DNA from: Treponema sp.
GTDB taxonomy: Bacteria; Spirochaetota; Spirochaetia; Treponematales; Breznakiellaceae
Assembly (NCBI GenBank): GCA_031256115.1
Contig: JAIRRF010000237.1
Coordinates: 1 to 18,750, forward strand
DNA: 18,750 nt
Reading direction: 5' to 3'
The position numbers and the translations under genes are program-made. Of the stretch, positions 143 through 17,923 are shown piece after piece (position 1 is the stretch's first letter; each line of letters opens with the position of its first letter). The notes beneath the pieces are model-generated. The model did not search any database. It saw nothing but the letters and a program-made list of their open reading frames with translations, and was not told the DNA's origin.

Positions 143-171
143 TTGACAGGAAAGAATAACTTCAATATAAT
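143..171 (+). promoter_or_regulatory. Consensus sigma-70 promoter for the MNT/HEPN pair
   Basis: TTGACA at 143-148, a 17-nt spacer, then TATAAT at 166-171: a perfect match to both hexamers. The -10 ends 6 nt before the ATG at 178, so transcription should start at or next to the start codon, giving a leaderless mRNA. The copies of TTGACA (110-115) and TATAAT (120-125) just upstream are only 4 nt apart and do not form a promoter together. Confidence 0.8.
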
Positions 172-177
172 TAAAAT

Positions 178-498
178 ATGGTAACTTTTGAGGAAAAAAT
201 AGACATTATTAAGGGATCCATTCTTAAATATGTTTCAGCAAAATGTATATATTTATTCGGTTCTTATGCTTATGGTAAACCAACAGACAATAGCGATATT
301 GATATTTATATTGTGCTACCCGATAGTGTTGAAAATATTTTACAACTATATGGTAAAATAATGGTGGAATTGAGCCTTAAAAAATTGTATTTTGTTGATA
401 TTTTGTTAAATAGGGAAAGTGTATTTAAAATTAGAAAAATTGAAAACATTCTCGAAGAAACTATTTTCCAAAAAGGAAAAATAATATATGAAAATTAA
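178..498 (+). CDS. Minimal nucleotidyltransferase (MNT), MntA-like antitoxin candidate
   Basis: A 106-residue protein of the minimal nucleotidyltransferase family (DNA polymerase beta-like fold). The active-site pattern is visible: G28-S29 in LFGSYAYG, the acidic pair D40/D42 in NSDIDIYIV, and a third Asp at D74 in YFVDILL. In characterised type VII toxin-antitoxin systems such proteins add AMP to a partner HEPN RNase and silence it. The next gene encodes a HEPN protein and overlaps this one by 11 nt, which supports a paired role. The start is the first ATG after a consensus promoter and has no Shine-Dalgarno. Its codons are strongly AT-rich, unlike the core genes to the right, which suggests acquisition by transfer. 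Family assignment is firm; the antitoxin role is inferred from the pairing. Confidence 0.88.
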   Translation: MVTFEEKIDIIKGSILKYVSAKCIYLFGSYAYGKPTDNSDIDIYIVLPDSVENILQLYGKIMVELSLKKLYFVDILLNRESVFKIRKIENILEETIFQKGKIIYEN

Positions 499-901
499 TG
501 ATGTTTTAGACTGGCTTACAATTGCTGATGAAGATTTGTATGCCGCCAAAATATTAAACGAACAAATACGCAGGCCTTTTGAAATTATATGTTACCATTG
601 CTCTCAAGCAGCCGAAAAATATTTAAAAGGCTATTTAGCTTATGTTGATGTTATAGCACCTAAAACACATAATTTAACGTTACTTCTTGATCTATGCATT
701 GAAAATCATATTGAATTTAAAAATATTAGAACAGAGTGTGGAATTTTGAATAAGTTTACAAATGAAATTCGTTATCCATACCGATTTGAGATTACAGATG
801 AAGATGTACTCTATTCTATAAATGCAGTAGAGATAATAAAAAACACTAAACCAGTTAAAGAATTAATTGATTTTATTACTAAAGAAACTAAAAAGGAATA
901 A
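488..901 (+). CDS. HEPN domain protein paired with MNT
   Basis: A 137-residue HEPN-domain protein. Recognisable parts are the N-terminal WLTIADEDLYAAKIL helix, the central CYHCSQAAEKYLKGYL helix, the KTHNLTLLLDLC segment and the late RYPYRF segment, which matches the 'ARYP' position of the larger HEPN family (Pfam PF05168 type). Members paired with MNT proteins are often toxins or nucleotide-binding partners. The classical RX4-6H RNase motif is not visible, so RNase activity should not be assumed. It starts inside the last codons of the MNT gene (11-nt overlap), so the two are probably translationally coupled from one leaderless transcript. It is AT-rich like its partner. The 3' end meets a decayed gene on the opposite strand. 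Confidence 0.85.
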   Translation: MKINDVLDWLTIADEDLYAAKILNEQIRRPFEIICYHCSQAAEKYLKGYLAYVDVIAPKTHNLTLLLDLCIENHIEFKNIRTECGILNKFTNEIRYPYRFEITDEDVLYSINAVEIIKNTKPVKELIDFITKETKKE

Positions 902-1607
902 TTGTGATAGGTCCCCATTAATTGCATAATGCTCTTTTTTAACAAGTGAATCAAAACACAATAATGTATTATTTATTAGTTCATGATTATCGTCAGTTGG
1001 ATATTTTAATCGACCAAGTCCATTGATGCCACAAATTGCTTTTGTCTCTATAGTTGAATTTGCCATTAGTAATAGTCTTGAGTGTTTTTCCTTTGCATCA
1101 ATTTGATTCAGATTAAAAATAATTTCTATAATGTAATGAAAAACAAAAGATTCATCCGACAACATCAAGTATTCCAAAAATTCTTCTGCGAAAACTGGTT
1201 GCTTGGATGTAATGTTTTGAATTTATGTATATCGGGTAGTATTAGGTATTTTTTTATGTAATACTTGATTCATAATTGAAAAATATCCAAGTAGACTTTC
1301 TTTATTAAGTTTTAGATCTCCAATAATGTCTTCCAGAGATATGCTTATTAACCATGCATCGTGACCATTTTTAATTGCTTTAATTGCATAAGCACATAAA
1401 TCTATATTATCTTTGTGATTTATTTCTGTTAAAAATATTTTTCTTTTATCTTTATCTTCTATATTATAAATCATAGAAAATAGATTTGCGGGATCTTTTT
1501 TAAGTTTTTCAAATTCATCATTAAAAAAATATCCATTTTTACTCCATTTATGAATTTCACTTTTCCATTGACTAAAGATGTAAAAATTGGAATTTTAAAA
1601 TGCTCAT
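863..1607 (-). pseudogene. Decayed hypothetical gene (frameshift plus in-frame stop)
   Basis: One minus-strand protein appears broken in two places. From ATG at 1607 it reads MSILKFQF. At a T5 run near 1580-1590 the protein-like reading moves to another frame and continues (YIFSQWKSEIHKWSKN and onward) to a TAA at 1223-1225. After that stop the same frame continues without interruption from about 1222 down to 863 (KQPVFAEEFLEYLMLSDESF and onward). No ribosome binding site or promoter marks a second gene after the stop, so a nonsense mutation in one gene explains the pattern best. The C-terminus runs into the end of the HEPN gene, where the natural end was probably lost. Product not recognised. 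The DNA is very AT-rich. Confidence 0.5.
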
Positions 1608-1638
1608 AAAATCTGAAGAGATAATTCCTTTATATGGC

Positions 1639-1959
1639 TCATACCCGTAACAACAATTCCTTCTTAGTCGAGTTTTTGGGATGCGCGGTTATCTCCAAAC
1701 CCATACCAAGGCTGTCCAAATAATCTATCAATGTTGAAATCCGTATATCTTTACGGTTTTCAAGTTTTGAGACTGCGGTCTGGGTAAAATTTGTAATTTC
1801 ACTTTGTTTTACACCGTATTTCTCCCGTAGCATACCAAGCCGGATATTAAGACTTTCTTTTTGTGCCATTTTTTTGGCTCTTTCTAAAACGGCTGGATTC
1901 ATTTTTTCATCAAGTTCGCTTATTGGGTGTGTTTTTTTCAAAATTTTTATTTTGCCCAT
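1639..1959 (-). CDS. XRE-family helix-turn-helix antitoxin (HigA-like)
   Basis: A 106-residue protein with an XRE-type helix-turn-helix at about residues 40-90 (LREKYGVKQSEITNFTQTAV, then SKLENRKDIRISTLIDYLD). It is the second gene of a toxin-first pair, the usual HigBA order: its ATG lies 19 nt after the toxin stop and is preceded by a clear Shine-Dalgarno (GGAG, 7 nt before ATG). In this family the protein binds and neutralises the toxin and represses the operon promoter. It is a paralogue of the antitoxin at 3734-4042; both share the pattern KLE-x-R-x-D-x-x-ISTL and end the domain with LEI-x-AH. Confidence is high for the fold and good for the role. Confidence 0.85.
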   Translation of the reverse strand: MGKIKILKKTHPISELDEKMNPAVLERAKKMAQKESLNIRLGMLREKYGVKQSEITNFTQTAVSKLENRKDIRISTLIDYLDSLGMGLEITAHPKNSTKKELLLRV

Positions 1960-1978
1960 CTTTATTCTCCTTCAACCT

Positions 1979-2320
1979 TTAATTGCGATACTGCTGGTAT
2001 ATTTCTTCGGCCAGTTTTATCAGATTTCGATAAAACCGCTTTTCATTCTTACCTTTTTTGTCACCTCCTATTAGCAAAACCCCTTTACGTTCCTCATCGA
2101 ATAGATAGGCTACCCGAAACACATTATTCTCAGTATGCGCCCGCAACTCCTTGAGGTTACTCAAGTTGCTTCCTTTCAAAGTATCAGCATGGGGACGGGG
2201 CAAGTGTGGACCATATTCTGTAAGAAGTTCAACCTTCATACGGATTGCTTCCTGCCCATTTTCAGATTGTTCTAAAAACCAAGTATCATATTCATCTGTC
2301 GTTTCTACTTCCCATCCCAT
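1979..2320 (-). CDS. RelE/ParE-superfamily toxin (HigB/Gp49-like)
   Basis: A 113-residue protein of the phage Gp49/HigB-like branch of the RelE superfamily. Family marks are the MGWEVETTDEYDTWF start, LPRPHADTLKGSNLSNLKEL, the core FRVAYLFDEERKGVLLIGGD and the closing KRFYRNLIKLAEEIY. Members cleave mRNA on the ribosome and are held in check by the HTH antitoxin, here the next gene. I start at ATG 2320 because the usual family N-terminus is 'M-x-WEVE' and a promoter ends 7 nt before it; a TTG at 2326 is possible but falls closer to the -10. The gene looks intact, unlike its relative at 4035-4391. Confidence 0.85.
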   Translation of the reverse strand: MGWEVETTDEYDTWFLEQSENGQEAIRMKVELLTEYGPHLPRPHADTLKGSNLSNLKELRAHTENNVFRVAYLFDEERKGVLLIGGDKKGKNEKRFYRNLIKLAEEIYQQYRN

Positions 2321-2327
2321 AAGCAAA

Positions 2328-2356
2328 AATATATGAACTATAATTCATCTAGTCAA
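2328..2356 (-). promoter_or_regulatory. Promoter of the first HigBA pair, with imperfect palindrome in its spacer
   Basis: On the minus strand TTGACT (2351-2356), a 17-nt spacer and TATATT (2328-2333). The -10 ends 7 nt before the ATG at 2320, so the message should be leaderless. The spacer and -10 edge contain an imperfect palindrome, TGAACTATAATTCA (+ strand, 2334-2347), where 6 of 7 position pairs are complementary. This is a plausible operator for the HTH antitoxin, by analogy with the perfect palindrome in the same place in the other HigBA promoter. Confidence 0.65.
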
Positions 2357-2670
2357 GCTCATAAACATTAGTCCTTAAAAGCCGTTCTGATAATAGCAAG
2401 TGGAAAAATGAAGGAAATCCCACTATGGAAAAAACCTACTACCTGACTTTGTCCCTTGCTACATTTTGTTCCAATTACTTGAATTTTAGATAAATAACCG
2501 GTCAATGAGTAATATTCCGGCAAACCCATTTTCCTGCAAATGGTCAACAAAATGGTCAACAGAATCCTTGACCTTTTTACTAATTTCGGATAACATAAAA
2601 TCTGGCTTATGTATGTAAGTCCTTATATTACAAGCACTTACGAGAAGCGTTAGATAGCGAAGACAGGTCA
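2357..2670. other. Stretch without a supported gene
   Basis: No convincing coding region. Short open frames exist but have no ribosome binding site or recognisable motif. The only structure I see is the 12-bp tandem repeat at 2538-2561. The stretch lies between the first HigBA pair and the tRNA-Asn fragment and may be the inner end of an integrated element. Confidence 0.5.
2538..2561. repeat. Two perfect 12-bp tandem copies
   Basis: AAATGGTCAACA at 2538-2549 is repeated exactly at 2550-2561. The pair lies about 110 bp from the tRNA-Asn fragment. Short direct repeats beside a tRNA attachment site can be arm-type integrase binding sites, but that role is inference only. Confidence 0.75.
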
Positions 2671-2722
2671 TCCCCCTGACTGTTAACCACTGGGTCTGTG
2701 GTTCGAATCCGCGCGGGGGAGC
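2671..2722 (+). pseudogene. tRNA-Asn (GTT) fragment lacking the D arm; probable attachment-site scar
   Basis: The sequence starts with an acceptor-like TCCCCC (2671-2676) and jumps within a few bases to an Asn anticodon loop, CTGTTAA (2680-2686, anticodon GTT at 2682-2684). A good T arm follows (TGTGG, TTCGAAT, CCGCG at 2697-2713), then the matching acceptor 3' strand CGGGGGA at about 2714-2720. The whole D arm, roughly 22-25 nt by comparison with ordinary tRNA-Asn, is absent. The anticodon stem does not close: CCACT is on the 3' side but AGTGG is missing on the 5' side. It cannot fold as a normal tRNA. A 3' tRNA segment followed by the tRNA terminator is typical of an integration site end, and TA modules and integrase debris lie close by. 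Confidence 0.75.
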
Positions 2723-2725
2723 TTA

Positions 2726-2749
2726 GGCCGCCTTTTGGCGGTCTTTTTT
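2726..2749 (+). terminator. Rho-independent terminator after the tRNA fragment
   Basis: GGCCGCC, a TTTT loop and GGCGGTC form a 7-bp stem (one G-U pair), followed directly by TTTTTT. It lies 3 nt after the tRNA-Asn fragment and was probably the terminator of the original tRNA gene. Confidence 0.85.
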
Positions 2750-3052
2750 GTTGCTTTACTCTGATTCATTTTGTTTCATAATTCCTTGTATAGTAAAGAC
2801 TTAACGACGTTCCTAAGAGGCTGTCGCATCCAAGCCCGAGAAACACAGTTTTACTATCTTGTGTCATTTTCCACTATGTTTTATTACAATATGTACCCCG
2901 ATATTATTAATAGGCGCCGAGCGCTGAAAGAGACTGCCATGCGGGACGGACAAGGGCAATGCCCCCTACCGTCAACTGACCAACAGCCTCTTTTTTATGT
3001 CCATTTATGTCCACAAATCCACATCTACCACTTCAATCGGTTTCTCTGCAGA
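2750..3052. other. Stretch without a supported gene
   Basis: A plus-strand frame is open through much of this stretch, but it has no ribosome binding site, its residue content is not protein-like, and its end runs antisense to the PIN partner gene. I see no tRNA, hairpin or repeat of note. It may be untranslated debris between the tRNA scar and the end of the four-gene TA operon. Confidence 0.5.
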
Positions 3053-3259
3053 TTACTGCGTTGCCCCGGAGGTTTGAGGAGAAATGTCAGAGCCAAGGAA
3101 ACGAAGAGCCCTTTGATGAACAGCGGCGTTATACTCTGCCGGGGACATTCCCTTACGCTCATCCTTTAGCTTGAGGCGGATTGCGTGTACTTCCCGAAGT
3201 GCTTGCGGTTCTCTGGCAAGATCCGGATCTTTCATGTAATCGTCAAGGGTTTTCTTCAT
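3053..3259 (-). CDS. Small partner protein of the PIN-domain protein (putative antitoxin)
   Basis: A 68-residue charged, helical protein: MKKTLDDYMKDPDLAREPQA, then REVHAIRLKLKDERKGMSPA and a Tyr-rich tail. I recall it as the small conserved protein found beside PIN proteins of the type encoded next door. It has a strong Shine-Dalgarno (GAGGTGAT, about 6 nt before ATG) lying inside the end of the PIN gene, and overlaps that gene by 17 nt. The order is PIN first, partner second, the reverse of classical VapBC. An antitoxin role is inferred from this pairing; no DNA-binding motif is obvious. It is the last gene of the four-gene operon. Confidence 0.7.
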   Translation of the reverse strand: MKKTLDDYMKDPDLAREPQALREVHAIRLKLKDERKGMSPAEYNAAVHQRALRFLGSDISPQTSGATQ

Positions 3260-3731
3260 GGTCTATCACCTCTGCAGGGGTATGTATAAACACCCGCTTG
3301 AACCCTTCGCGGGCGTTGATGATCTCTGTCTGAATTATCGTTTTATGTTTTACAATGTGCCGGAAATTCAAACTGATAATGAAATCAAGACCGGCAACAG
3401 TTGCCGCGGCTATATGGACAGCATCCGTTGAATACTTCTCTGGAACAACACCCTCCGCAACATACAGATCTGCAAGCCGCATTGTTTCATCATTTCCCGG
3501 CAGCACTTCAACCGCATTATCCGCAATGAGAGCCTTCATCTCTTTGAGCTTTTCTGCGTCCTTTGTTTCTTCAAGTTCGTCAAGGACATATTCTGAGGTG
3601 AAGGGCCGGAACTTTTCGGTTTTTATCTCCGCGAACAGTTGCCGGGCTTCCGCCTGGTATTGTGGAGCATCATCGACAAAGGGAAAATTAAAAATCGTAG
3701 TTTCAAGGTAAATAGTCGGAATCCTTGGCAT
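3243..3731 (-). CDS. PIN-domain protein (VapC-like putative RNase toxin)
   Basis: A 162-residue PIN-domain protein. PIN landmarks in order are E10 in IYLETTIFNF (Glu where classical VapC has Asp, which I recall as normal for this subgroup), D51-E52 in YVLDELEE, D103 in YSTDAVHIA, and LDFIISLNFRHIV at 115-127. PIN toxins are Mg-dependent RNases that cut tRNA or rRNA. The ATG at 3731 lies 2 nt after the stop of the HTH antitoxin, with no own promoter, so it is translationally coupled to the HigA-like gene. Its own partner overlaps its 3' end. The acidic set looks complete and the gene intact. Confidence 0.85.
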   Translation of the reverse strand: MPRIPTIYLETTIFNFPFVDDAPQYQAEARQLFAEIKTEKFRPFTSEYVLDELEETKDAEKLKEMKALIADNAVEVLPGNDETMRLADLYVAEGVVPEKYSTDAVHIAAATVAGLDFIISLNFRHIVKHKTIIQTEIINAREGFKRVFIHTPAEVIDHEENP

Positions 3732-3733
3732 GG

Positions 3734-4042
3734 TTATATCTGTGAAAAATTTGCTATCTTTACCGTACCTTCGGGGAAATGGGCCAGGATTTCAAGGTTG
3801 CCGCCCATAGCTTCGACATGGCTCCGCAAGGTAGAGATATACATGTCCGTCCGTTTTTCCAGTTTTGCTATAGCCGGTTGCTGGATGTTCAAGGCTTCGG
3901 CAAGCATCTTTTGAGAAAGCCCTCTGGCATTCCGTAATTCATTAAGCGGCATTTCGGCCATAGCCTTTTCAACCATCTTGTCAATATTTGCTCTGCGCTC
4001 CGGGCTGATTTTGGCCCTTAGTTCTGAAAATTTTCTAGCCAT
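3734..4042 (-). CDS. XRE-family helix-turn-helix antitoxin (HigA-like), second copy
   Basis: A 102-residue protein starting MARKFSELRAKISPERRANI. The HTH domain spans about residues 33-80 (LNELRNARGLSQKMLAEALN, then IQQPAIAKLEKRTDMYISTL). I start at ATG 4042 because a clear Shine-Dalgarno (AGGAG) sits 8 nt upstream; the frame is open further, to 4078, but that extension has no such signal. It overlaps the end of the disrupted toxin gene by 8 nt. Family role: binds the HigB-like toxin and represses the operon. Because the toxin carries a stop codon, this protein may now act mainly as an operon repressor, controlling the downstream PIN pair from the palindrome at 4402-4419. Confidence 0.85.
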   Translation of the reverse strand: MARKFSELRAKISPERRANIDKMVEKAMAEMPLNELRNARGLSQKMLAEALNIQQPAIAKLEKRTDMYISTLRSHVEAMGGNLEILAHFPEGTVKIANFSQI

Positions 4043-4391
4043 TGTATTTCTCCTGTATTTCTTTAAGGTACTCATCATAGATTTTGTCGGCCTTGGGGAT
4101 CATTACTTCATAGAACCTGTCGTCTCCGGTCTTGTCCCCGCCGATAAGCAAGATTCCGGTCCTTCTGGGGTCAAAAGCATAAAACGTCCGCAAGGGTTTC
4201 CCTTTGCACCGGCTCCGCAGCTCCCTCATAGCTCCATGTTTGGATCCCTTGACATCAGAACAATACGGATACTTTAGCAACGGGCCGTTTCTTTCCAGTA
4301 TATCAATCGAAAAAGTCACAGCGTCCCGCTAATCTGCGTCCAGCGTCTCCCACCATTCTCCAAATTCGTCGGTAAATTCAACTTCCCACAT
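4035..4391 (-). pseudogene. HigB/Gp49-like toxin with in-frame amber stop
   Basis: From ATG 4391 the frame reads MWEVEFTDEFGEWWETLDAD, a textbook start for this toxin family. It then hits TAG at 4329-4331 and continues in the same frame (RDAVTFSIDILERNGPLLKY) to the family's closing segment: ELRSR, RTFYAFDPRRTGILLIGGD and DDRFYEVMIPKADKIYDEYL. The stop falls where the family has a short loop before the first long helix; a Gln codon CAG to TAG change would explain it. The part after the stop is otherwise full length, and a GTG at 4319 could restart translation, but a toxin without the first strands is unlikely to fold. The stop might also be a sequencing error or be read through. Confidence 0.75.
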
Positions 4392-4397
4392 ATTCTT

Positions 4398-4426
4398 ATT
4401 GTATTCCATAAATGGAATAACGTCAA
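4398..4426 (-). promoter_or_regulatory. Promoter of the four-gene toxin-antitoxin operon
   Basis: On the minus strand TTGACG (4421-4426), a 17-nt spacer and TACAAT (4398-4403). The -10 ends 6 nt before the toxin ATG at 4391, predicting a leaderless mRNA for all four downstream genes. The spacer is almost filled by a perfect palindrome. Confidence 0.75.
4402..4419. promoter_or_regulatory. Palindromic operator candidate inside the promoter spacer
   Basis: TATTCCATAAATGGAATA: two perfect 8-bp arms, TATTCCAT and ATGGAATA, around an AA centre. It covers nearly the whole spacer and touches the -10, so a bound dimer would block RNA polymerase. The HTH antitoxin of the operon is the natural candidate to bind it (inference from HigA autoregulation). 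Confidence 0.7.
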
Positions 4427-4494
4427 GTAGGATTTTCAGGTTTTATCGGGCTTCCGTCAGATATCGGTGCAATCTGGCAAGGCGGCGTTTAGCG

Positions 4495-4650
4495 GTGAAA
4501 AAGGGAATCAGGTTTGAATACCGCCCCGAGGTTAAAGACCGTTCTGACGCTATAAAACTTCTGGACGTTCTTATGAGGGCGGCTTTCATTGAAAATCTTG
4601 ACACTGCTCTGGAAGCGCTAAAGGACGCAATCGAGCGGGAAATAATCTGA
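4495..4650 (+). CDS. Possible small unknown protein or gene tail upstream of the integrase remnant
   Basis: From GTG at 4495 the frame encodes about 51 residues: a basic start, the segment FEYRPEVKDRSDAIKLLDVL, then AAFIENLDTALEALKDAIER, which is strongly helix-like. The frame is open further upstream, to 4399, but that part overlaps the TA promoter and is Arg-rich and not convincing. There is no clear ribosome binding site, so this may be the tail of a larger lost gene of the integrated element. I do not recognise the family. Confidence 0.35.
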   Translation: MKKGIRFEYRPEVKDRSDAIKLLDVLMRAAFIENLDTALEALKDAIEREII

Positions 4651-4715
4651 ACCCTCCGGGGCTGTATGGTCCCGGCAATCATAACGCCGGGGAACCCGGC
4701 AAAGGAGCTTTTATT

Positions 4716-5027
4716 ATGGCAAAGCTGTCATTATGTTTTGAAAAAGATGAAGAATATCGTCCCCTTGCATTGAGAAAGAAACTGCGCGGGTACATCGACA
4801 CCATTGCTGACAGGCAGGGCCAGAATGACTTCACCCATAAAGCCATTAAATACCTTGAATTGTTCCCTGGCGGTAATATCTCCCTGGGCGGCGTTACGGA
4901 AAAATGGCTTGAGAATTTTCAGGAATACCTGCTTAAAGAAACCAGGCTGTCAAAAAAGAACATCGGCTGGCATACTGCCCGGCACACCTTCGCGGTTTTG
5001 TCCCCAGGAGCCTCTTGTCGGGTTTAG
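4716..5027 (+). pseudogene. Tyrosine integrase remnant, internally deleted
   Basis: The gene begins well (GGAG 8 nt before ATG at 4716) and encodes the N-terminal SAM-like core-binding region of a phage-type tyrosine recombinase (THKAIKYLELFPGGNISLGG, then WLENFQEYLLKETRLSK). It then jumps straight to the catalytic box II, KNIGWHTARHTFAVL, which carries the H-x-x-R pattern. The region that should lie between, with the first catalytic Arg and Lys, is missing, and after ARHTFAVL the frame runs out in SPGASCRV, so the final Tyr is also gone. The 103 residues compare with the usual 300-400. It cannot recombine DNA. It is the remaining trace of the machinery that probably used the tRNA-Asn site to its left. 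Confidence 0.75.
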
Positions 5028-5177
5028 CCTATATTAAGAGAAAAAATACGAAAACACTGGTTTTTGAGCATTTTTACCGTTTTTTATTTTTTTCAGAAAA
5101 ATTAAAGCGCTGTGCATCTTTACGCCATATAGGCAGTGAGTAGTAAGTAGTGGTTAAATTTTTATTTGGAGGTTTTT

Positions 5178-5432
5178 ATGGTAGTCAAAATGTTTGAGGA
5201 AGGCTTAAAATTGTTGTCAATGGGTGAAAAATTACCCTCTTTGCCGAATATTCCATTCAAATCAAAAGGCGGAGAAGTATTGTGGAATGAATTAGCCAAT
5301 TTTAATGGCTGGCGGGTACAGGAAAATCAAATCACACATCATTGCCGGGTTCTTGATCCTGACAATAAACGAGTCGCATGGGGCGGTTATGCGGCAATGA
5401 TGAAATCGTTTGAGCGGCTCCTGAAAAAATAA
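5178..5432 (+). CDS. Small protein of unknown function
   Basis: An 84-residue protein, MVVKMFEEGLKLLSMGEKLP and onward, ending in a basic helix (AAMMKSFERLLKK). The start is set by a strong GGAGG at 5168-5172, 5 nt before ATG; a TTG further upstream overlaps the ribosome binding site and is less likely. It has a mid-section rich in Trp, Asn and His (NELANFNGWRVQENQITHHC) and no signal peptide or membrane segment. I do not recognise the family. It stands alone between the integrase remnant and the convergent mazG, so it may belong to the accessory strip. The region before it (5030-5165) is AT-rich with T-runs and no clear promoter. Confidence 0.6.
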   Translation: MVVKMFEEGLKLLSMGEKLPSLPNIPFKSKGGEVLWNELANFNGWRVQENQITHHCRVLDPDNKRVAWGGYAAMMKSFERLLKK

Positions 5433-5435
5433 ATT

Positions 5436-5465
5436 AAAGCTGAGCAATTTTACTTGTGAGCTTTT
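5436..5465. terminator. Possible two-way terminator between convergent genes
   Basis: AAAGCT (about 5437-5442) and AGCTTT (about 5458-5463) are complementary, with weaker inner pairing (CAA with TTG) and A/T runs at the outer ends. The hairpin includes the last codons of mazG. It could end both the 84-residue gene and mazG. The inner stem has mismatches, so confidence is modest. Confidence 0.4.
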
Positions 5466-6355
5466 GCCTCGTTCCAAAAGCGATCCATAAGTTCCAGATT
5501 TGCTGTTTCCATGACCGCACCGCATTCCTTCATCTTTTTTTCTACATGGGCAAACCGGGCAGTAAATTTAACATTGGTTCGTTGCAAAGCCAATGATGGC
5601 ACTACATTAAAAAACCGGCACAGATTTACCGCAGAAAAAAGTAGATCCCCCAGTTCTTCTTCAAGTTGAACAGACTGGCCTCCTGATTGCTTGCTGAAGC
5701 ATTCAGGTGCAGCCGCCTCTACTTCAGCCAGTTCTTCTTTCAACTTTTCCAAGGCTCCTGAATAATTGGGCCAGTCAAATCCTTTTTTAGCCGCTTTTTT
5801 TTGAAGTTTCCAGGCTCTGTCCAGGGGCGGCAATGCCCGGGATACCTCGTCCAGTACAGAATCTTTAGGTTTCCTTCCTTCTTGTTCAACCTTAATCCTG
5901 GCCCAGTTGTCCAATACTTTTGCAGAATTGATAGTTCCCTTTTTATTATCCGTCCGGATCCCGCCGAACACATGGGGATGGCGGCGGATTAATTTTTCGG
6001 AAATATCTTTCAGAACTTCGGAAACAGAAAATTGTCCTTCCTGCTGGTGAATATAGGAAATCATGGTTACCAGCAGAAAAAGATCCCCTAATTCTTCTTT
6101 TATATGAACAGGGTTTTGTTCATCTATGGCTTCGATACACTCGTAACATTCTTCGACTAGATCGCCCCGGAGGGAAATGGGGCTTTGTTCCCTGTCCCAG
6201 GGACAGCCGCCCTCGCCCCTGAGTTTTTTTACAATGCCGTAAAGCCTGTTAAAAGTTTCTCCAGGCGTATCTGCGGGTCGTGAACTGAAGGAAGCTGATT
6301 GTTCATCATCACCGGAAACAGTGCATGCATGGGAGGTTGTCTGTGTATAATCCAT
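5450..6355 (-). CDS. mazG: Nucleoside triphosphate pyrophosphohydrolase MazG
   Basis: A 301-residue MazG. It hydrolyses NTPs and dNTPs to the monophosphate and PPi, a house-cleaning activity in the cytosol. Two MazG repeats are visible. The first has GGCPWDREQS at 49-58, the metal-binding E68-E69-x-x-E72 helix, EELGD at 87-91 and RRHPHVFGG at 124-132. The second has EELAEVE at 207-213 and EEELGDLLF at 232-240. The length is somewhat above the usual 260-270 because of an extra 30-residue low-complexity N-terminus rich in Ser, Thr and Asp. The ATG has no Shine-Dalgarno, but a TATAAT ends 5 nt before it, so it may be leaderless. It is divergent from pth. Confidence 0.93.
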   Translation of the reverse strand: MDYTQTTSHACTVSGDDEQSASFSSRPADTPGETFNRLYGIVKKLRGEGGCPWDREQSPISLRGDLVEECYECIEAIDEQNPVHIKEELGDLFLLVTMISYIHQQEGQFSVSEVLKDISEKLIRRHPHVFGGIRTDNKKGTINSAKVLDNWARIKVEQEGRKPKDSVLDEVSRALPPLDRAWKLQKKAAKKGFDWPNYSGALEKLKEELAEVEAAAPECFSKQSGGQSVQLEEELGDLLFSAVNLCRFFNVVPSLALQRTNVKFTARFAHVEKKMKECGAVMETANLELMDRFWNEAKAHK

Positions 6356-6360
6356 GAATT

Positions 6361-6366
6361 ATTATA
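6361..6366 (-). promoter_or_regulatory. -10 element of mazG
   Basis: TATAAT on the minus strand ends 5 nt before the mazG ATG at 6355. The hexamer 17 nt further upstream is a poor -35. Its closeness to the ATG fits the leaderless pattern seen elsewhere in the window. Confidence 0.5.
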
Positions 6367-6385
6367 GTGAAGCCATGCCTTTTTA

Positions 6386-6394
6386 TGCTAGAAT
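6386..6394 (+). promoter_or_regulatory. Extended -10 element of pth
   Basis: TGCTAGAAT: an extended -10 (TG-n) with TAGAAT at 6389-6394, 9 nt before the pth ATG. The predicted start of transcription falls within about 3 nt of the ATG. No good -35 is seen, as expected for an extended -10 promoter. It lies back to back with the mazG -10. Confidence 0.5.
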
Positions 6395-6403
6395 AAGGCT
6401 CCT

Positions 6404-10151: not shown

Positions 10152-10180
10152 TTGCAGATAATGTTTTTTTGGGTTATTAT
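10152..10180 (+). promoter_or_regulatory. Promoter of the PilZ gene
   Basis: TTGCAG (10152-10157), a 17-nt spacer and TATTAT (10175-10180). The -10 ends 6 nt before the ATG at 10187, predicting a leaderless mRNA. Confidence 0.65.
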
Positions 10181-10186
10181 ATTGAC

Positions 10187-12070: not shown

Positions 12071-12098
12071 AGAAAAGTTGCACTTCCTGGGTTTTTTA
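12071..12098 (+). terminator. Weak terminator candidate after the EEP-family gene
   Basis: CAG..AAGT, a TGC loop and ACTT.CTG make a short broken stem, followed by GGTTTTTT. The stem has bulges, so this is only a candidate for ending the PilZ-EEP unit before the next promoter. Confidence 0.3.
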
Positions 12099-12100
12099 TA

Positions 12101-12128
12101 TTGACATAATTTACAGTTATATCATACT
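12101..12128 (+). promoter_or_regulatory. Promoter of the acyl-CoA ligase gene
   Basis: TTGACA (12101-12106), a 16-nt spacer and CATACT (12123-12128). The -10 ends 6 nt before the ATG at 12135; no Shine-Dalgarno is present. The consensus -35 and this spacing support a leaderless message. Confidence 0.65.
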
Positions 12129-12134
12129 AAGCTC

Positions 12135-13877
12135 ATGCTGCATTGGAATGAATATTGCGCCGACTGGCCTGAATTTGATTACCCGAATTTTATCGCCTGG
12201 CTGAACAGTATCGAAAAAAAATACGGCGAAAAAACCGCTGTCTTTTACCGAACTTCCAGACAACTTGATTTTACGCGCTGGTCCTATAGCTCCTTTGCCA
12301 CCGAGTGCCGCCGCATAGCCCGGGGACTTCGTAAAGCAGGGCTTAAAGAAGGGGACAGGGTTGTCCTTTGGGCAGAAAACCGCCCTGAATGGATGGCGGT
12401 GTGGATTGGTACGGTCATTGCCGGTTGTGCCATTGTTCCTGTGGATTACCTTGTAAGCGATAAAGAATGCAGCAATATCTTTGATATTGCCAAAGCAAAA
12501 GTTTTCTTTTACTCACAACGAAAGGAAGAATTTGCCCAAGCGCTTACTATTCAGGAGAATTTAAAAATCTGCATCGATGATGAAAAAACAGACAAGTTCC
12601 GGAATTTCGGTAAAGATACTTCTGTAGAACTTCCGGATGAAAGCAGTATATCAGGAAACTGTCCGGCATCCATTGTTTTTACCTCCGGTACTACCGGTTT
12701 TGCCAAGGGAGTACTGCTTTCCCACAGGGCAATTCTTTCCAATGTAAGCGCAGCAATCCAATCCATTCAGCCTGAACCGGATGATATTTTTATCAATGTC
12801 CTTCCGCTGCACCATACTTATCCCACCACATGTTCTTTTTTGGCGCCTTTGGTCCGGGGAACAGGAACTATTGTTGTTGAAAAACTTGTAGGGAAAGTGG
12901 TAATCGACGACATCCGGGATGCCCAGGGCCGTCTGCTTATAGCCGTACCTCTGCTTTACGACAAAATTAAGGATGCTATAGATTCAGGGCTGAATAAGCT
13001 GTCTCCCCCGGTAAAGTTCATTATCAATATTCTACGAAATATTTCTTTGACCCAGGCAAGAAAAAGCAAGGTACGGTTCGGCCAGATAATGTTGAAATTT
13101 GTACGGAAAAAAGCAGGACTGGGCAGTGTCCGTCTTATGGTAGCCGGCGGAGGCCCCCTAAACCCCAATACGGCGGATTTTTTTGAATCCCTGGGTTTCA
13201 ACATCTTCCATGGTTATGGAATGAGCGAAAACGCCCCCCTGATTTCCGTGGGCACCCCCGGTTTTAAGAACAATGTTTCCGTGGGACTGCCGGTCAAATA
13301 TACTGAAATACGAATCGATAATCCCGATGAATTCGGCGTGGGAGAAATTATGGTAAAGTCCCCCTCCGTCATGCTGGGCTACTACGAAAATCCCGAAGCT
13401 ACTAAAGAAGTAATTACGGCTGACGGCTGGCTCATGACCGGAGATCTGGGATATCGGGATGAAAATGGTTTTCTTTACATCAACGGCCGCAAGAAAAACC
13501 TGATTGTCAGTTCCGGGGGTAAAAATATTTACCCCGAAGAAATAGAACTCTACTTTAACGGTTCCCGTATAGTAGGAGAAATCCTTGTTCTTGGACGGAA
13601 AGATAAAACCGGCGGCGAACACATCTTTGCCGTGGTAGTCCCTAACCGGGAAACCATATGCCAGGATTATCCGGGAAAGATAAGCGCGGAAGGCAGTCTC
13701 AGCAGCGAAGAGGAAGAGTTTATTCGCTCTCTGGCTAAAAAGGAAATTGAACAGGTAAACCGCGGCCTTCCGGGCTTTAAAAAGATTGCAGACTTTACTC
13801 TCCGCCAGGAGGAATTTGAAAAGAACGCCCAGAAAAAAATACGCCGCTTTCTCTACAGGGATTATGAAAAAGCATAA
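12135..13877 (+). CDS. Long-chain acyl-CoA synthetase / AMP-forming ligase
   Basis: A 580-residue AMP-binding enzyme. Motifs in order: phosphate-binding SGTTGFAKG (184-192), HGYGMSE (359-365), adenine/ribose-binding TGDLG (435-439), hinge GRKKN (451-455), and GGKNIYPEEIE just after. These place it with long-chain fatty acyl-CoA synthetases, which activate fatty acids via acyl-AMP. No membrane helix is evident, so it should work at the inner face of the membrane or in the cytosol. The C-terminal domain is slightly long and Glu/Lys-rich. A VOC-fold protein follows 12 nt later, so they are likely co-transcribed. The true substrate cannot be read from sequence. Confidence 0.9.
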   Translation: MLHWNEYCADWPEFDYPNFIAWLNSIEKKYGEKTAVFYRTSRQLDFTRWSYSSFATECRRIARGLRKAGLKEGDRVVLWAENRPEWMAVWIGTVIAGCAIVPVDYLVSDKECSNIFDIAKAKVFFYSQRKEEFAQALTIQENLKICIDDEKTDKFRNFGKDTSVELPDESSISGNCPASIVFTSGTTGFAKGVLLSHRAILSNVSAAIQSIQPEPDDIFINVLPLHHTYPTTCSFLAPLVRGTGTIVVEKLVGKVVIDDIRDAQGRLLIAVPLLYDKIKDAIDSGLNKLSPPVKFIINILRNISLTQARKSKVRFGQIMLKFVRKKAGLGSVRLMVAGGGPLNPNTADFFESLGFNIFHGYGMSENAPLISVGTPGFKNNVSVGLPVKYTEIRIDNPDEFGVGEIMVKSPSVMLGYYENPEATKEVITADGWLMTGDLGYRDENGFLYINGRKKNLIVSSGGKNIYPEEIELYFNGSRIVGEILVLGRKDKTGGEHIFAVVVPNRETICQDYPGKISAEGSLSSEEEEFIRSLAKKEIEQVNRGLPGFKKIADFTLRQEEFEKNAQKKIRRFLYRDYEKA

Positions 13878-13889
13878 AGGGTTTTCCAT

Positions 13890-14384
13890 ATGTTGAGCTT
13901 TTTAGCGGGAGATAAACCCTTTCAGGCTGGTTTTTTGGTACAGGATCTGGAAGCCTGTATCCGCTCTTACATCGACCGTTTCGGCGTTGGTGGCTGGCAG
14001 GTTTACACCTACGGCCCGGAGATTCTGAGCCGTATGATCTACCGGGGAAAAAACACTTCCTATTCAAGCCGCATAGGGCTTAACTATATTTGCGGTACCC
14101 GGATAGAACTGATCCAGCCCCTGGAAGGACAAACAATCTTTACAGAATTTATCGAAAAACACGGATACGGACAGCACCACCTGGGAATTTATGTGGACAA
14201 TATCCGTACTGCCATAGAGGAAGCAGAAGAAGCAGGTTTTAAGGTTATTATGGAAGGCGGGGGCCACGGCTTGGACGGAGACGGGTTTTACGCTTACCTG
14301 GATACGGAAGAAACCCTGGGAACCACCTACGAGTTGATAGAACGGCCCGCCCGCCGCCGGAAACCGGAAGCGGTACTGCCCTAA
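13890..14384 (+). CDS. VOC/glyoxalase-fold protein
   Basis: A 164-residue protein of the vicinal oxygen chelate superfamily, with two beta-alpha-beta-beta-beta modules: AGFLVQDLEACIRSYIDRFG and HHLGIYVDNIRTAIEEAEEA. Metal-ligand positions: Q12 stands where methylmalonyl-CoA epimerase-like members have His, E73 in IELIQP, H97 in QHHLGI, and E148 in YELIER. Closest in style to methylmalonyl-CoA epimerase or glyoxalase/dioxygenase relatives. The ATG follows AAAGGG; the gene lies 12 nt after the acyl-CoA ligase, hinting at a role in acyl-CoA metabolism. Specific function unknown; the fold is clear. Confidence 0.8.
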   Translation: MLSFLAGDKPFQAGFLVQDLEACIRSYIDRFGVGGWQVYTYGPEILSRMIYRGKNTSYSSRIGLNYICGTRIELIQPLEGQTIFTEFIEKHGYGQHHLGIYVDNIRTAIEEAEEAGFKVIMEGGGHGLDGDGFYAYLDTEETLGTTYELIERPARRRKPEAVLP

Positions 14385-14400
14385 AATATTTACCCTTTTT

Positions 14401-15561
14401 TTATTTAAAGAGTTGTCCGGCTATGGAAGGTATGGCGATAAAAGTTCCGGCGGTGCTGCCCATGGAAGATAAAAAAAACACCAGAAGGGCCCTTGTTATG
14501 CGGTTACGGTATATCCCTCTGATGCTGCCGATGTCGTCGTTAATGGATTCGGCATCCTCTACCCTGGGTTTACGGAATGTTACTTCCGTCAGGCCGGTAA
14601 ATACTCCCACTCCTATAAAAGGGGTTGTAGAGGTAACAGGCGCTGCCAGGAAGGAAACCAAAACAGAGAGCGGATGACCCAGGGCAAGGATCGCTCCCAG
14701 GGCGGAAAGACCTCCGTTCCAGAACAGCCACCGGAGCATTATGGAAAAGCTGGAAGAAACCCCCAGTTTATAAAAACCGTAAACAAGCATCCCGACTATT
14801 AATGCAGGAATTATCCAGCGGACAAGGCGGGAAAAAATTCCTCTGGGCGGAATTTGATTCAAATCCTCCACAGCTGCATCTTCTTCGCCGGCGGCGATTT
14901 TTTCCAGATGAGTTTTAATCCCCTCCAGATGACCGGCCCCTACCACAGCCAGGCTTCGGGTTCCTCCGGCGGTCCAGATCTTTGCCGCCAAAAAACGGTC
15001 CCTTTCATCTATTAAGGTTTCTTTGACCGGCGGAAGGTAGGATGCCAACTCATTCATCATCCCGTCCAGTTCGCTGCGGTTTTTTAAATTTTCTATTTCT
15101 TCTTCACTTAGTTTTTCCGTAGAAAAAGCGCTGGCCAGAAGGGACGCCAGCAGCTTGGATTTATTCCAAAAACTGCATCTGGACCATGCCCTTTGAAGGG
15201 TAATTTGTACTTCCCGGTCACAAAGGGCATGGGGAATCCCCAATTCCCCGGCGGTTTCCAGGGCGGCTTTCATTTCTTCCCCGGGCTTAATTCCCAATTC
15301 GTTTCCCAGCCGCCGTTGAAAACCCGCCAGGACCAAATTAGCCATGAGCAGGAAACCTTTTCCTTCTTTAAAGACCCTGGCTACATCCAGTTTATCCCAG
15401 GCATTGTTGTTTATTGCGTCATAACGGCCCTTGTCCAGTTCCACACAGACCATGTCGGGTTTTTCTTCCAGTATGGCTTTGCGTACTTCTTCTATGCTTT
15501 CTTTGGAAATATGGGCAGTACCGATAAGGGTGATGGTTTTTCCGCCTGCGTTTATGGTCAT
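14401..15561 (-). CDS. TraB/PrgY-family membrane protein
   Basis: A 386-residue protein. The N-terminal TraB domain (about 1-225) shows the GTAHISKESIEEV segment (14-26), DMVCVELDKGRYDAI (36-50) and the closing GAGHLEGI. The C-terminal part, from about residue 245, is a set of hydrophobic helices (WIIPALIVGMLVYGFYKLGV and others). TraB/PrgY proteins were first described as pheromone shutdown factors; the fold is related to Tiki/ChaN/EreA-like proteins, and a peptidase role has been proposed. It follows the vWA gene by 34 nt on the same strand and is probably in its operon. A five-codon frame ends directly against the start codon. Confidence 0.88.
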   Translation of the reverse strand: MTINAGGKTITLIGTAHISKESIEEVRKAILEEKPDMVCVELDKGRYDAINNNAWDKLDVARVFKEGKGFLLMANLVLAGFQRRLGNELGIKPGEEMKAALETAGELGIPHALCDREVQITLQRAWSRCSFWNKSKLLASLLASAFSTEKLSEEEIENLKNRSELDGMMNELASYLPPVKETLIDERDRFLAAKIWTAGGTRSLAVVGAGHLEGIKTHLEKIAAGEEDAAVEDLNQIPPRGIFSRLVRWIIPALIVGMLVYGFYKLGVSSSFSIMLRWLFWNGGLSALGAILALGHPLSVLVSFLAAPVTSTTPFIGVGVFTGLTEVTFRKPRVEDAESINDDIGSIRGIYRNRITRALLVFFLSSMGSTAGTFIAIPSIAGQLFK

Positions 15562-15579
15562 CTATGTATATGCTTCCAT
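15562..15579 (-). other. Five-codon mini-ORF abutting the TraB start
   Basis: ATG-GAA-GCA-TAT-ACA-TAG encodes MEAYT and its stop codon is directly followed by the TraB ATG (TAGATG). It could permit reinitiation, or it may be chance. The only weak ribosome binding site near the TraB start (GGAAG, 11 nt before ATG) overlaps it. Confidence 0.3.
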
Positions 15580-15595
15580 AAAACGCCGTTTACTT

Positions 15596-16723
15596 CTACT
15601 GGGGAAGGATCAGCGCATGGATTCTGATGTTTCGCTCGGCCACGGCGGCCTGAACCATCTCTTTTGTAATTCTACCCCGGGGCCGCAGGTGCGGGGGGGC
15701 GTCTCCGATTAGAATAATAAGCCGCTTTTCGGCTTCCCAGGTAAATCGTACCGCACTGTCATAGAGCCCTTCGTAAACTGCCTCGGGTATGTCCCCGCCG
15801 CCCCGGATATTGATCCCGTTCAGACTACGCTGGACCTGGTTTAAATCGGCAGTAAAAGGAATAACCCTGGTAATGTACTCCTCGTTATAGTCCTTAAAAA
15901 GAACCATCCCGATCCGCCAGCCCGATGTACCCAGGGTTTGGCCAAGCAAAGGAACCAAGTTTTGTTTAATTTCCGCGAAGTCATTTTTCATGGAACCGGT
16001 GGTATCCAGACAGATCACCAAATCCTTGGGGCCCGGTTCTCTCTCGAGAACTGTTTTTATCTGTTCCATCGTATTGGCGGGTCCGGTGGAATAAAACATA
16101 CTTCCCCTGCCCCATTCGGCAATGTCAGTAAAGGCAGCCAGGGTTTCTTTCATGTAATTTCCCGTTGGAGGACCCGGCTGAGGCTGCTGCTCCGCCACTA
16201 CCAGGACAAAAGGGTTGTCGCGAAAGCTGCCCCGGTAATCTGCGTAAGGTAGGGAAAATGCCCTGATGTTAAGGTAGGTTCCGTCTTTTACCGCAATTTC
16301 GCCATGCCGGGTAGTTTCATAACCGTAGTGGAGGATATAAGGAATAAAAATATGGAAAGCCTCGCCCAATTCGCTGTGAAATTCCGGAGTGGAATCGATC
16401 AGGGACCAGATTTGCGCCGATTTGGGGATGGGTTCTCCGTCCAGAATACGGATTTCGTCTCCGTTAATGGGGTTCCATTCCGGCGCCCGGTAAGCATAAT
16501 TGGCAGATGTCAAGGAGGGGTCCCTGGTAGACTCGGTAATTAACACCGAACCCAGGCCGGGTTTTTTCCGTATGTACAGATGAAAGCCCCCATCCGCCCG
16601 CTCCTCGACTCTCGTATCCCCCTGCACTATTTCCAGGTTGGGATTATTCGGGGCCGGGCCAGTCTGAGCGGCAAGGAGGACAGGACACAGAAAGAAGAAA
16701 AAATGAAAAAGTTTCCGGTTCAT
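15596..16723 (-). CDS. Secreted von Willebrand factor type A domain protein
   Basis: A 375-residue exported protein. A signal peptide (MNRKLFHFFFFLCPVLLAAQ) is followed by about 210 residues of beta-rich, unrecognised sequence, then a vWA domain (about 234-375) whose MIDAS metal site reads DTTGSM (D240, T242, S244). Later landmarks are GGGDIPEAVYEGL and LIILIGDAPPH. Such proteins bind ligands or partner proteins through the metal site, outside the cytoplasm or in the periplasm. It is the first gene of a unit with the TraB gene. The start ATG at 16723 has no Shine-Dalgarno; a GATAAT lies 7 nt upstream. Partner and function unknown. Confidence 0.87.
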   Translation of the reverse strand: MNRKLFHFFFFLCPVLLAAQTGPAPNNPNLEIVQGDTRVEERADGGFHLYIRKKPGLGSVLITESTRDPSLTSANYAYRAPEWNPINGDEIRILDGEPIPKSAQIWSLIDSTPEFHSELGEAFHIFIPYILHYGYETTRHGEIAVKDGTYLNIRAFSLPYADYRGSFRDNPFVLVVAEQQPQPGPPTGNYMKETLAAFTDIAEWGRGSMFYSTGPANTMEQIKTVLEREPGPKDLVICLDTTGSMKNDFAEIKQNLVPLLGQTLGTSGWRIGMVLFKDYNEEYITRVIPFTADLNQVQRSLNGINIRGGGDIPEAVYEGLYDSAVRFTWEAEKRLIILIGDAPPHLRPRGRITKEMVQAAVAERNIRIHALILPQ

Positions 16724-16730
16724 CGTAATA

Positions 16731-16758
16731 ATTATCGGTAAAATTAAGGCTTTCTTAA
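16731..16758 (-). promoter_or_regulatory. Promoter of the vWA-TraB unit
   Basis: On the minus strand TTAAGA (16753-16758), a 16-nt spacer and GATAAT (16731-16736). The -10 ends 7 nt before the ATG at 16723. The -35 matches consensus at 4 of 6 positions, so the assignment leans on the -10 and its position. Confidence 0.45.
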
Positions 16759-16765
16759 TCTCTCC

Positions 16766-16794
16766 TTTACAAACCCTAATTAATCTGTCATTAT
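16766..16794 (+). promoter_or_regulatory. Promoter of the RpiB-fold gene
   Basis: TTTACA (16766-16771), a 17-nt spacer and CATTAT (16789-16794). The -10 ends 6 nt before the ATG at 16801, predicting a leaderless mRNA. It lies back to back with the vWA promoter. Confidence 0.65.
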
Positions 16795-16800
16795 TCTTAT

Positions 16801-17346
16801 ATGCCGCAAGAGAATGTTTATTTTATTTCCATAGAAAGGTTCGAGAAAACGACAAAAGAGATTATTGCCGCCCTGTTGAAAATGTCTGAAGTGGTGCAGG
16901 AGTTCGATCTGGTCTATGCATTGGATAATCCGGAAATAAGTAAACATTTTGATATAAAAAAAATTACCGGGGATGATACTGCGGACATCGCCGCCAAACT
17001 TGTCACAGCTACAGAAAACCGCGCTGTACTGTTGACCGCCAGCGGCGCCAGCCCTGTCGCCCGCTGCGCGAGGTTGTACACGCACGATATCCGCGCAGCT
17101 GTGGCATTTGTTCCGGATCAGGCCTGCGACATCAGGATCAGGTTCGGTGCCAATGTAATATCCTTAGCCGCGGACTATATGGAGCGCTCTGATATGCTGG
17201 ATACAATCGCGGCATACCTGATCGCAAATCCCGGCATGTCGAAAGAAGAATGGAATAACAGAATTGTCAAAAAAAATCTTCACAACGAAGAAATGCAAAA
17301 ACAATTATTCTCGGCGGCCGCCGCCGCTAACGCCAAAAGAACCTGA
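16801..17346 (+). CDS. Divergent RpiB/LacA/LacB-fold protein without the usual catalytic residues
   Basis: A 181-residue protein resembling the sugar-phosphate isomerase B family in its second half. AVLLTASGAS (75-84) sits at the place of the active-site loop 'ICGTGIG', and DIRAAVAFVPDQACDIRIRF with GANVISLAA (96-124) matches the 'GIRAA...HNDANVLALG' segment. The active-site Cys and GTG loop are replaced by TASGA, and the His/Asn-Asp cluster by RFGAN, so isomerase activity is doubtful. The N-terminus lacks the typical 'SDHxG' nucleotide-like loop. It may have taken up another ligand or a regulatory role. The tail is basic and Ala-rich. Leaderless promoter; carD follows on the same strand. Confidence 0.55.
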   Translation: MPQENVYFISIERFEKTTKEIIAALLKMSEVVQEFDLVYALDNPEISKHFDIKKITGDDTADIAAKLVTATENRAVLLTASGASPVARCARLYTHDIRAAVAFVPDQACDIRIRFGANVISLAADYMERSDMLDTIAAYLIANPGMSKEEWNNRIVKKNLHNEEMQKQLFSAAAAANAKRT

Positions 17347-17384
17347 CACTGTTTAGGAATCCATATCGCCCTGGGCCCGCCCCC

Positions 17385-17413
17385 TTTAACAATTCCTTAT
17401 TTTTTGGTATATT
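17385..17413 (+). promoter_or_regulatory. Promoter of carD-ispD-ispF
   Basis: TTTAAC (17385-17390), a 17-nt spacer and TATATT (17408-17413). The predicted transcription start, at about 17420, falls on GTG 17420 or 3 nt before ATG 17423. Confidence 0.55.
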
Positions 17414-17422
17414 TTACAGGTG

Positions 17423-17923
17423 ATGGGCAGGATGGCAAAGAACTTTCAGGTTGATCAGAAAGTAGTTTACCCCAGCCAGGGGGTAGGTATTATTAAAGCC
17501 CTGGAAAAAAAGCTGTTTAAAAACGAAAAAATACCATACTACCGTATTTATTTGGAAGTATCCGATATGACCATCCTGGTTCCGGTGGACAAGGCCGAGG
17601 GACTGGGAATTCGGCCCATTGTACCCCGGGACGAAGCCCTGCGGGCGCTGGAACTTATCGGTGAAGAATATGAGCCAATTCCATCAGACTGGAAACTCCG
17701 GTATCAAATGAACCTGGATCTCTTAAAAAAAGGCAGTATTTCCGATATTGCCTCCATTGTCAGATCCCTGTACCACAGGAGTAAGGTAAAAGAACTTCCC
17801 ATTCTGGAGCGTAAACTCTACGATTCGGCCCTTAAATTACTGGAAGATGAAATTTCCTATTCTCTTAAAAAACCCAGGGAAGAAGTTGAATCATTGATAT
17901 TTAACCATTTGGAAGCAGAATAG
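17423..17923 (+). CDS. carD: CarD-family RNA polymerase-binding transcription regulator
   Basis: A 166-residue CarD/CdnL-type protein. The N-terminal Tudor-like RNAP-interaction domain is visible (FQVDQKVVYPSQGVGIIKAL, then YYRIYLEVSDMTILVPVDKA, about residues 8-65); the rest is helical, with RSLYHRSKVKELPILERKLY and a closing helix that ends in EVESLIFNHLEAE. CarD binds the RNAP beta subunit and stabilises open promoter complexes, mostly for rRNA and housekeeping genes. Starts at GTG 17420, ATG 17423 and ATG 17432 are possible in frame; I choose 17423 because it lies just after the predicted transcription start. ispD begins 7 nt after the stop, as in the carD-ispDF order I recall from other treponemes. 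Confidence 0.9.
   Translation: MGRMAKNFQVDQKVVYPSQGVGIIKALEKKLFKNEKIPYYRIYLEVSDMTILVPVDKAEGLGIRPIVPRDEALRALELIGEEYEPIPSDWKLRYQMNLDLLKKGSISDIASIVRSLYHRSKVKELPILERKLYDSALKLLEDEISYSLKKPREEVESLIFNHLEAE

Follow-up and report, generated by a model that had tools for sequence, protein, structure and literature searches.

Does the first gene of a transcription unit in this spirochaete, as a rule, start its message on the start codon itself? The question is raised by an 18,750-nucleotide (nt) stretch of DNA from Treponema sp. (Breznakiellaceae), contig JAIRRF010000237.1 of assembly GCA_031256115.1, referred to below as the window. Ten first genes in it, from an MNT gene at one end to carD at the other, carry a -10 hexamer that ends 5-9 nt before the start codon, and the original prediction took this leaderless layout to be the rule for first genes in the genome. 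The sequences compared here point instead to leaderless-type promoters that are real and at some genes old, forming one of two layouts and not a universal rule. Very probably, leaderless-type and leadered first genes coexist in the window's own genome and in other Treponematales, the former being a minority of recognisable promoters here and about half of them in a sister genome.

A sharp signal in a sister genome

The window is contig C186 of its metagenome-assembled genome (MAG; 1.73 Mb in 340 contigs, 72% complete, 4.4% estimated contamination), hereafter the own genome. We take this MAG and the related ones to come from insect guts. The own genome was sampled over 334 kb (61 contigs, among them the window), the same-genus sister MAG G002 and Breznakiella over 400 kb each, and G033, G025, G138, G045, the Deinococcus deserti plasmids and Escherichia coli K-12 over 100 kb each; a family set comprised 1.06 Mb of named carD loci. 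Genes were called with a codon model blind to upstream signals. A gene counts as first if its neighbour is divergent or if the gap upstream of it is 80 nt or longer; a gene was excluded if no neighbour had been called on its contig. The distance d is the number of nt between the end of the -10 and the start codon.

The layout is most distinct in G002, where an expectation-maximisation (EM) fit converges on TATA(C/A)T, most often at d=6. Matches to the -10 that exceed a fixed threshold at d=4-9 precede 39 of 135 first or divergent genes, where control offsets average 13.4 (p=6.5e-10), and in 22 of the 135 first genes the hexamer lies exactly 6 nt before the start. If only unambiguous starts are counted, where the called ATG is the sole in-frame ATG or GTG between 100 nt upstream and 60 nt downstream, 19 of 49 have a site. 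The genome-wide peak at 5-9 nt anticipated in the original prediction is therefore sharp in G002; in the own genome it is weak, with a site before 14 of the 70 first genes sampled outside the window, where control offsets give 7.0 (p=0.009). The G002 genes so headed combine housekeeping and signalling functions without a single theme, the leaderless-type set alone having been scanned: of 24 strict leaderless-type genes, 20 were scanned with Pfam and 16 matched, including two CDP-alcohol phosphatidyltransferases, alanine racemase, peptide deformylase and a PurL-like enzyme, together with CheX, CheW, response regulator, NUDIX, HAD and hemerythrin proteins.

One of two layouts, in shares that differ between genomes

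To what extent does this layout account for all promoters that can be recognised? Unconstrained EM motif discovery settled on AT-rich local optima both for the own genome and for the mixed family set and was dropped, which is why a G002-trained model and an untrained consensus model were used. The latter takes the best site per gene, with the chance share drawn from shuffles; its gene numbers are low estimates, as weak promoters and wrong starts are lost. By this count 26 of 62 recognisable promoters in G002 lie at d=4-9 (52% net of shuffles, which give 0.8 in that range), compared with 3 of 21 in the own genome outside the window (19% net) and 7 of 53 in Breznakiella (17% net). The family loci without carD give 17 of 100, the small samples 2 of 8 (G033), 3 of 15 (G025), 4 of 12 (G138) and 0 of 14 (G045), and E. 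coli K-12, run through the same pipeline, 0 of 7. Chance sites make up 13.5 of the 62 promoters in G002, 6.5 of the 21 in the own genome and 14.0 of the 53 in Breznakiella, nearly all of them beyond 9 nt. The G002 share differs from that of Breznakiella (p=0.0008) and of the own genome (p=0.033, uncorrected), while the own genome and Breznakiella show no difference from each other. With the G002-trained model the corresponding fractions are 28/59 in G002, 5/24 in the own genome (window included) and 5/48 in Breznakiella. Splitting the family set by similarity rank or by G+C revealed no clear trend.

These shares bear directly on the possibility that leaderless starts are the rule across the own genome, the other first genes looking leadered through mis-called starts or weak promoters. 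Seven of the ten listed window genes are individually significant, and the summed posterior of the trained model in the own genome, window included, is 10.1 at d=4-9 against 1.3 in shuffled sequence, as opposed to 10.6 against 8.5 at d=10-43. Nonetheless, 18 of the 21 promoters recognised outside the window fall beyond the d=4-9 range, even if 6.5 of the 21 are expected by chance; the remaining ones lie mostly 10-179 nt upstream, in part by chance. Clear AAGGAG or GGAGG sequences stand before many first genes of the own genome and of G002 (in G002, among those listed), and a Shine-Dalgarno tetramer (AGGA, GGAG or GAGG) precedes 16 of the 56 own first genes outside the window that have no leaderless-type site. 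A general rule is improbable on this evidence, and that part of the original prediction was rejected: most recognisable promoters of the own genome are not of the leaderless type, and the window is a leaderless-rich stretch of it. A search for the anti-Shine-Dalgarno sequence found GGATCACCTCCT in 6 of 8 genomes, with no match in the own MAG. Three matches were checked with Rfam, and only the Breznakiella one (L173) lies at the end of a 16S gene, the G002 and G018 ones falling outside any recognised rRNA; an intact anti-Shine-Dalgarno tail is thus established for Breznakiella only.

A promoter rather than a ribosome-site motif

An AT-rich hexamer so close to the start codon could in principle act in translation, as an A/T-rich, non-Shine-Dalgarno ribosome site of the kind found in Bacteroidetes. 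Its position fits, and few of these genes have a Shine-Dalgarno sequence: 3 of 39 leaderless-type first genes in G002 do versus 35 of 96 others, and in the own genome outside the window none of 14 genes with a site does. Likewise, the tetramer occurs in 0 of 35 leaderless-type genes of the family set without carD. A ribosome site, however, would be expected inside operons as well, and there the hexamer is at control level (3/82 versus 2.8 in G002, 2/47 versus 2.4 in the own genome, 6/217 versus 5.1 in the family set), as it is in Breznakiella internal genes. Moreover, the hexamer is tied to a -35 element, which a ribosome site does not need. A -35 match (at least 4 of TTGACA at 16-18 nt from the -10) accompanies 64% of the 39 -10 matches in G002 versus 11% of 1,493 in-gene control hexamers, and 36% of 14 in the own genome versus 10% of controls. 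In G002 the spacing is exactly 17 nt for 38% of matches versus 4% of control hexamers, and the extended -10 element TGn is present in 23% versus 6%. Taken together, the -35 linkage, the control-level internal genes and the avoidance of Shine-Dalgarno sequences argue for a promoter that starts transcription on the AUG, and a translation signal in its place was discarded as very improbable.

The reading we prefer therefore has two kinds of first gene. In the first, a sigma-70-type promoter (TTGACA-like, 17 nt, TATAAT/TATACT-like) has a -10 that ends some 6 nt short of the start codon. Where the promoter lies, and that a Shine-Dalgarno sequence is missing, can be read directly from the DNA; where the transcript starts and how it is translated we infer from established knowledge. 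RNA polymerase, starting about 7 nt past the -10, would begin the transcript either with the A of the AUG or 1-3 nt away, such that the promoters allow a predicted leader of about 0-3 nt. The resulting leaderless message would contain no Shine-Dalgarno sequence, and the ribosome would bind its 5'-terminal start codon directly. In the second kind, the promoter lies further upstream, often with a Shine-Dalgarno sequence before the gene.

The ten sites of the window

When the coordinates were rechecked, all ten -10 hexamers lay at the claimed spacings of 5-9 nt. Each site was scored at d=4-9 with a -35/-10 model trained on G002 only and compared with 300 dinucleotide shuffles per start (p values below).

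143..177, plus strand: MNT promoter; TTGACA 143-148, 17-nt spacer, TATAAT 166-171, 6 nt, ATG 178; score 8.6, p=0.003
2321..2356, minus strand: first HigB promoter; TTGACT 2356-2351, 17-nt spacer, TATATT 2333-2328, 7 nt, ATG 2320; p=0.003
4392..4426, minus strand: second HigB promoter; TTGACG 4426-4421, 17-nt spacer, TACAAT 4403-4398, 6 nt, ATG 4391; p=0.003
6356..6366, minus strand: mazG -10; TATAAT 6366-6361, 5 nt, ATG 6355; weak -35 at 18 nt; p=0.010
6386..6403, plus strand: pth extended -10; TGC-TAGAAT (6386-6394), 9 nt, ATG 6404; p=0.21, not significant alone
10152..10186, plus strand: PilZ-gene promoter; TTGCAG 10152-10157, 17-nt spacer, TATTAT 10175-10180, 6 nt, ATG 10187; p=0.010
12101..12134, plus strand: acyl-CoA ligase promoter; TTGACA 12101-12106, 16-nt spacer, CATACT 12123-12128, 6 nt, ATG 12135; p=0.007
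16724..16736, minus strand: vWA -10-like element; GATAAT 16736-16731, 7 nt, ATG 16723; p=0.41, not significant alone
16766..16800, plus strand: RpiB-like gene promoter; TTTACA 16766-16771, 17-nt spacer, CATTAT 16789-16794, 6 nt, ATG 16801; p=0.056, borderline
17386..17422, plus strand: carD promoter; TTAACA 17386-17391, 16-nt spacer, TATATT 17408-17413, 9 nt, ATG 17423 (6 nt to GTG 17420); p=0.010

Seven of the ten thus beat their shuffles singly (p<=0.013), the RpiB-like gene is borderline, and pth and vWA fail on their own, though elements of both recur in a few relatives; for vWA, two same-genus relatives have GATAAT or GATATT 7-8 nt upstream of the start (by eye). On the least probable account, TATAAT-like hexamers abound in AT-rich upstream regions by chance and the near ones were simply picked. 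This account was rejected: control offsets do give 7.0 of 70 own first genes per typical 6-nt range, and pth and vWA fit it, but the ten sites sum to a score of 42.2 against a shuffled mean of -21.1 (standard deviation 8.2, maximum 11.6 in 20,000 draws), the G002 peak falls at exactly 6 nt, and homologues in GC-rich members of the order have the layout too. The layout does not extend to every divergent first gene of the window, ApbE having no such promoter (p=0.28).

The predicted lack of a Shine-Dalgarno sequence is borne out: at each of the ten starts, the 16 bases examined contain none of AGGA, GGAG and GAGG. The complementary list of genes said to keep Shine-Dalgarno sequences stands for both HigA genes (HigA2 if its start is 4042), the PIN partner, the integrase remnant and the 84-residue gene, and falls for the EEP gene, which has none of the three tetramers; HEPN carries one as well. 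Both carD starts had been entertained. ATG 17423 (d=9) is preferred, as it aligns with the starts of relatives (by eye), over GTG 17420, which would give p=0.013.

Several sites deserve individual comment. The MNT gene has the top-scoring leaderless-type promoter of the window despite lying in its low-G+C end. This MNT/HEPN end (positions 1-1500) has 28% G+C versus 38-50% elsewhere in the window, as expected of an acquired stretch. The first HigB protein (the name is that of the original prediction) matches PF05973 (Gp49-like), and an imperfect palindrome at 2348-2333 spans its promoter spacer; at the second HigB promoter the palindrome is ATTCCAT-TT-ATGGAAT at 4418-4403. Such palindromes are as expected of self-repressed toxin-antitoxin operons, a mode of regulation that the sequences would fit. 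The second HigB had been listed as a promoter-headed gene; the promoter holds up, and the frame behind it does not, for from ATG 4391 it meets an in-frame TAG (4331-4329) after 20 codons. This stretch (4035-4391, minus strand) would be a putative toxin gene interrupted soon after its start codon, with promoter and HigA partner kept. Higher-scoring sites lie further upstream of mazG (d=34) and pth (d=38). The PilZ gene product matches PF07238, and acyl-CoA ligase homologues occur in 39 of 39 genomes. The RpiB-like gene (16801-17346) has a homologue in none of the 38 other relatives, and its protein falls below the Pfam cut-off for LacAB_rpiB.

Conservation at particular genes

Is the layout a property of the host lineage, as had been proposed, and not only of acquired genes? 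Its presence in G002 and its retention at homologues of carD and of the PilZ gene bear this out. The window carD protein is 90-91% identical to that of several Treponema MAGs and 82% to that of Breznakiella homolactica (Breznakiellaceae, Treponematales, Spirochaetota). Upstream of carD, 77 of 94 distinct sequences (window included) have a -10 with a score >2 at d=4-10, 66 of the 77 at d=7-9, and just 4 of the 94 have a Shine-Dalgarno tetramer. In several of the 17 misses the first ATG lies inside an extended -10 that is properly spaced to a later ATG (by eye). Two carD copies on different contigs are found in G023 and in MAGs Gx481_bin158 (L063, L070) and Co191P3bin12 (L109, L128).

The PilZ gene and its homologues have the layout in 15 of 20 loci (own included; 30 loci were given, and these 20 contain the anchor motif), 14 of the 15 at d=6-7, against a control of 0.10 per ATG. 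The sites often read TTGN-N17-TATCAT-N6-ATG with differing spacer letters. Some belong to other families of Treponematales, and the distant homologues are 30-37% identical.

Conservation at mazG is partial: a -10-like hexamer lies at d=4-9 in 10 of 30 loci (own included; control 0.16 per ATG), and the site is kept in the same-genus G001, G003 and G004 and in nearby G022. Three further order members have TTGC-17/18-TATCGT-6-ATG just under threshold (by eye). A second mazG-like frame in the own MAG (G000:C243:5039-5854), 64% identical to the window mazG, may be a paralogue or a contaminant. In the relatives L332-L334 a PilZ-family gene lies divergent to mazG, behind TATGCTAGAATAA, which stands 6 to 10 nt before its ATG; the same element is present in the window, 9 nt before pth (6356-6403 region). 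To judge from these loci, the mazG-divergent promoter has been kept with a different gene behind it, PilZ-family in the three relatives and pth in the window.

Farther afield, in an unselected 40 kb of L336 and L337 (70% and 64% G+C, same order), 3 of 16 first genes are leaderless-type, as are 3 of 5 recognisable promoters (none in shuffles) and 1 of 9 internal genes. For some genes the layout thus seems to predate the family, on small samples. A plausible but tentative extension, which we rate as not quite probable, is that a fixed-geometry leaderless class is ancestral to Treponematales, kept at the PilZ gene, carD and partly mazG, GC-rich families included, while its genome-wide share of recognisable promoters swings from less than one-fifth (Breznakiella and the window's genome) to about one-half (G002) within one family.

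Several results weigh against the picture of a real, partly conserved class. The signal in the own genome outside the window is modest, both in the 3 of 21 promoters given above and in the trained-model posterior of 7.3 genes (shuffled mean 1.7, maximum 4.8). The single-hexamer test gave no clear excess in Breznakiella (11/116 versus 12.9 in the control), G033 (3/34 versus 1.4), G025 (8/37 versus 6.4), G138 (2/38 versus 2.8) or G045 (1/30 versus 2.2), nor did it in E. coli. The positive control, the D. deserti plasmids, was weakly detected, with 4/40 versus 0.6 in the single-hexamer test, 0 by trained-model posterior and 1 of 7 recognisable promoters. Start calls were exact for 29 of the 36 genes found in the E. 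coli stretch (42 annotated) and for 29 of the 36 found in the D. deserti stretch (39 annotated). A homologue vote on start codons was set aside as too noisy, agreeing with the caller at 16 of 29 own genes and 18 of 41 G002 genes; after this noisy vote, 2 of 2 recognisable promoters in the own genome and 2 of 5 in G002 lay at d=4-9. Finally, the mazG layout is confined to the 10 of 30 loci and is absent at the G002 mazG (score -5.8).

Relation to known leaderless genes and implications

Leaderless bacterial genes are already known, in spirochaetes too; the present case is a new one, with a sharp geometry that is conserved in part. In Deinococcus-Thermus and Actinobacteria they coexist with Shine-Dalgarno genes. 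Leptospira, the spirochaete in which they are discussed below, belongs to a different class of the phylum.

According to the survey of Zheng et al. (2011; PMC3160421), leaderless genes average 39.4% of genes in Deinococcus-Thermus and 19.2% in Actinobacteria. The likeness to those groups lies in a TAnnnT/TATAAT-type signal at a short fixed distance before part of the genes. Unlike there, the share here, obtained by another method, is about one-fifth to one-half of recognisable promoters, and the motif, TATAMT, is fuller and comes with a -35 element 17 nt away. For Spirochaetes, the same phylum as here and the same kind of computational signal, the survey reports leaderless genes in 6 of 18 genomes, where they average 3.9% of genes and range from 1.8% to 6.9% (PMC3160421). 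The net value for G002, about 26 of 254 called genes in 400 kb, is above this range, the methods being different. A study of Leptospira interrogans describes about 440 mRNAs with leaders <10 nt by differential RNA sequencing (dRNA-seq; PMC5243855); in that spirochaete the starts were mapped by experiment, whereas the sites here are read from sequence. A 2017 comparison includes six Spirochaetes (PMC5397173). A literature search on leaderless genes and spirochaetes, which covered few subscription papers, found no study of such genes in this family, and one on Treponema start sites found nothing.

What follows for the biology of these organisms? Gene starts in such MAGs are commonly predicted by programs that seek Shine-Dalgarno sequences, and a leaderless class this large would be partly mis-annotated by them. 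Leaderless messages use a different translation route, so their share and identity bear on the regulation of expression in bacteria that are mostly uncultured. The homologue series of the PilZ gene, carD and mazG make switching between initiation modes testable within one order. If the class is indeed ancestral, the group would constitute a natural series for genes that switch between leadered and leaderless states, the mazG-divergent promoter being one example.

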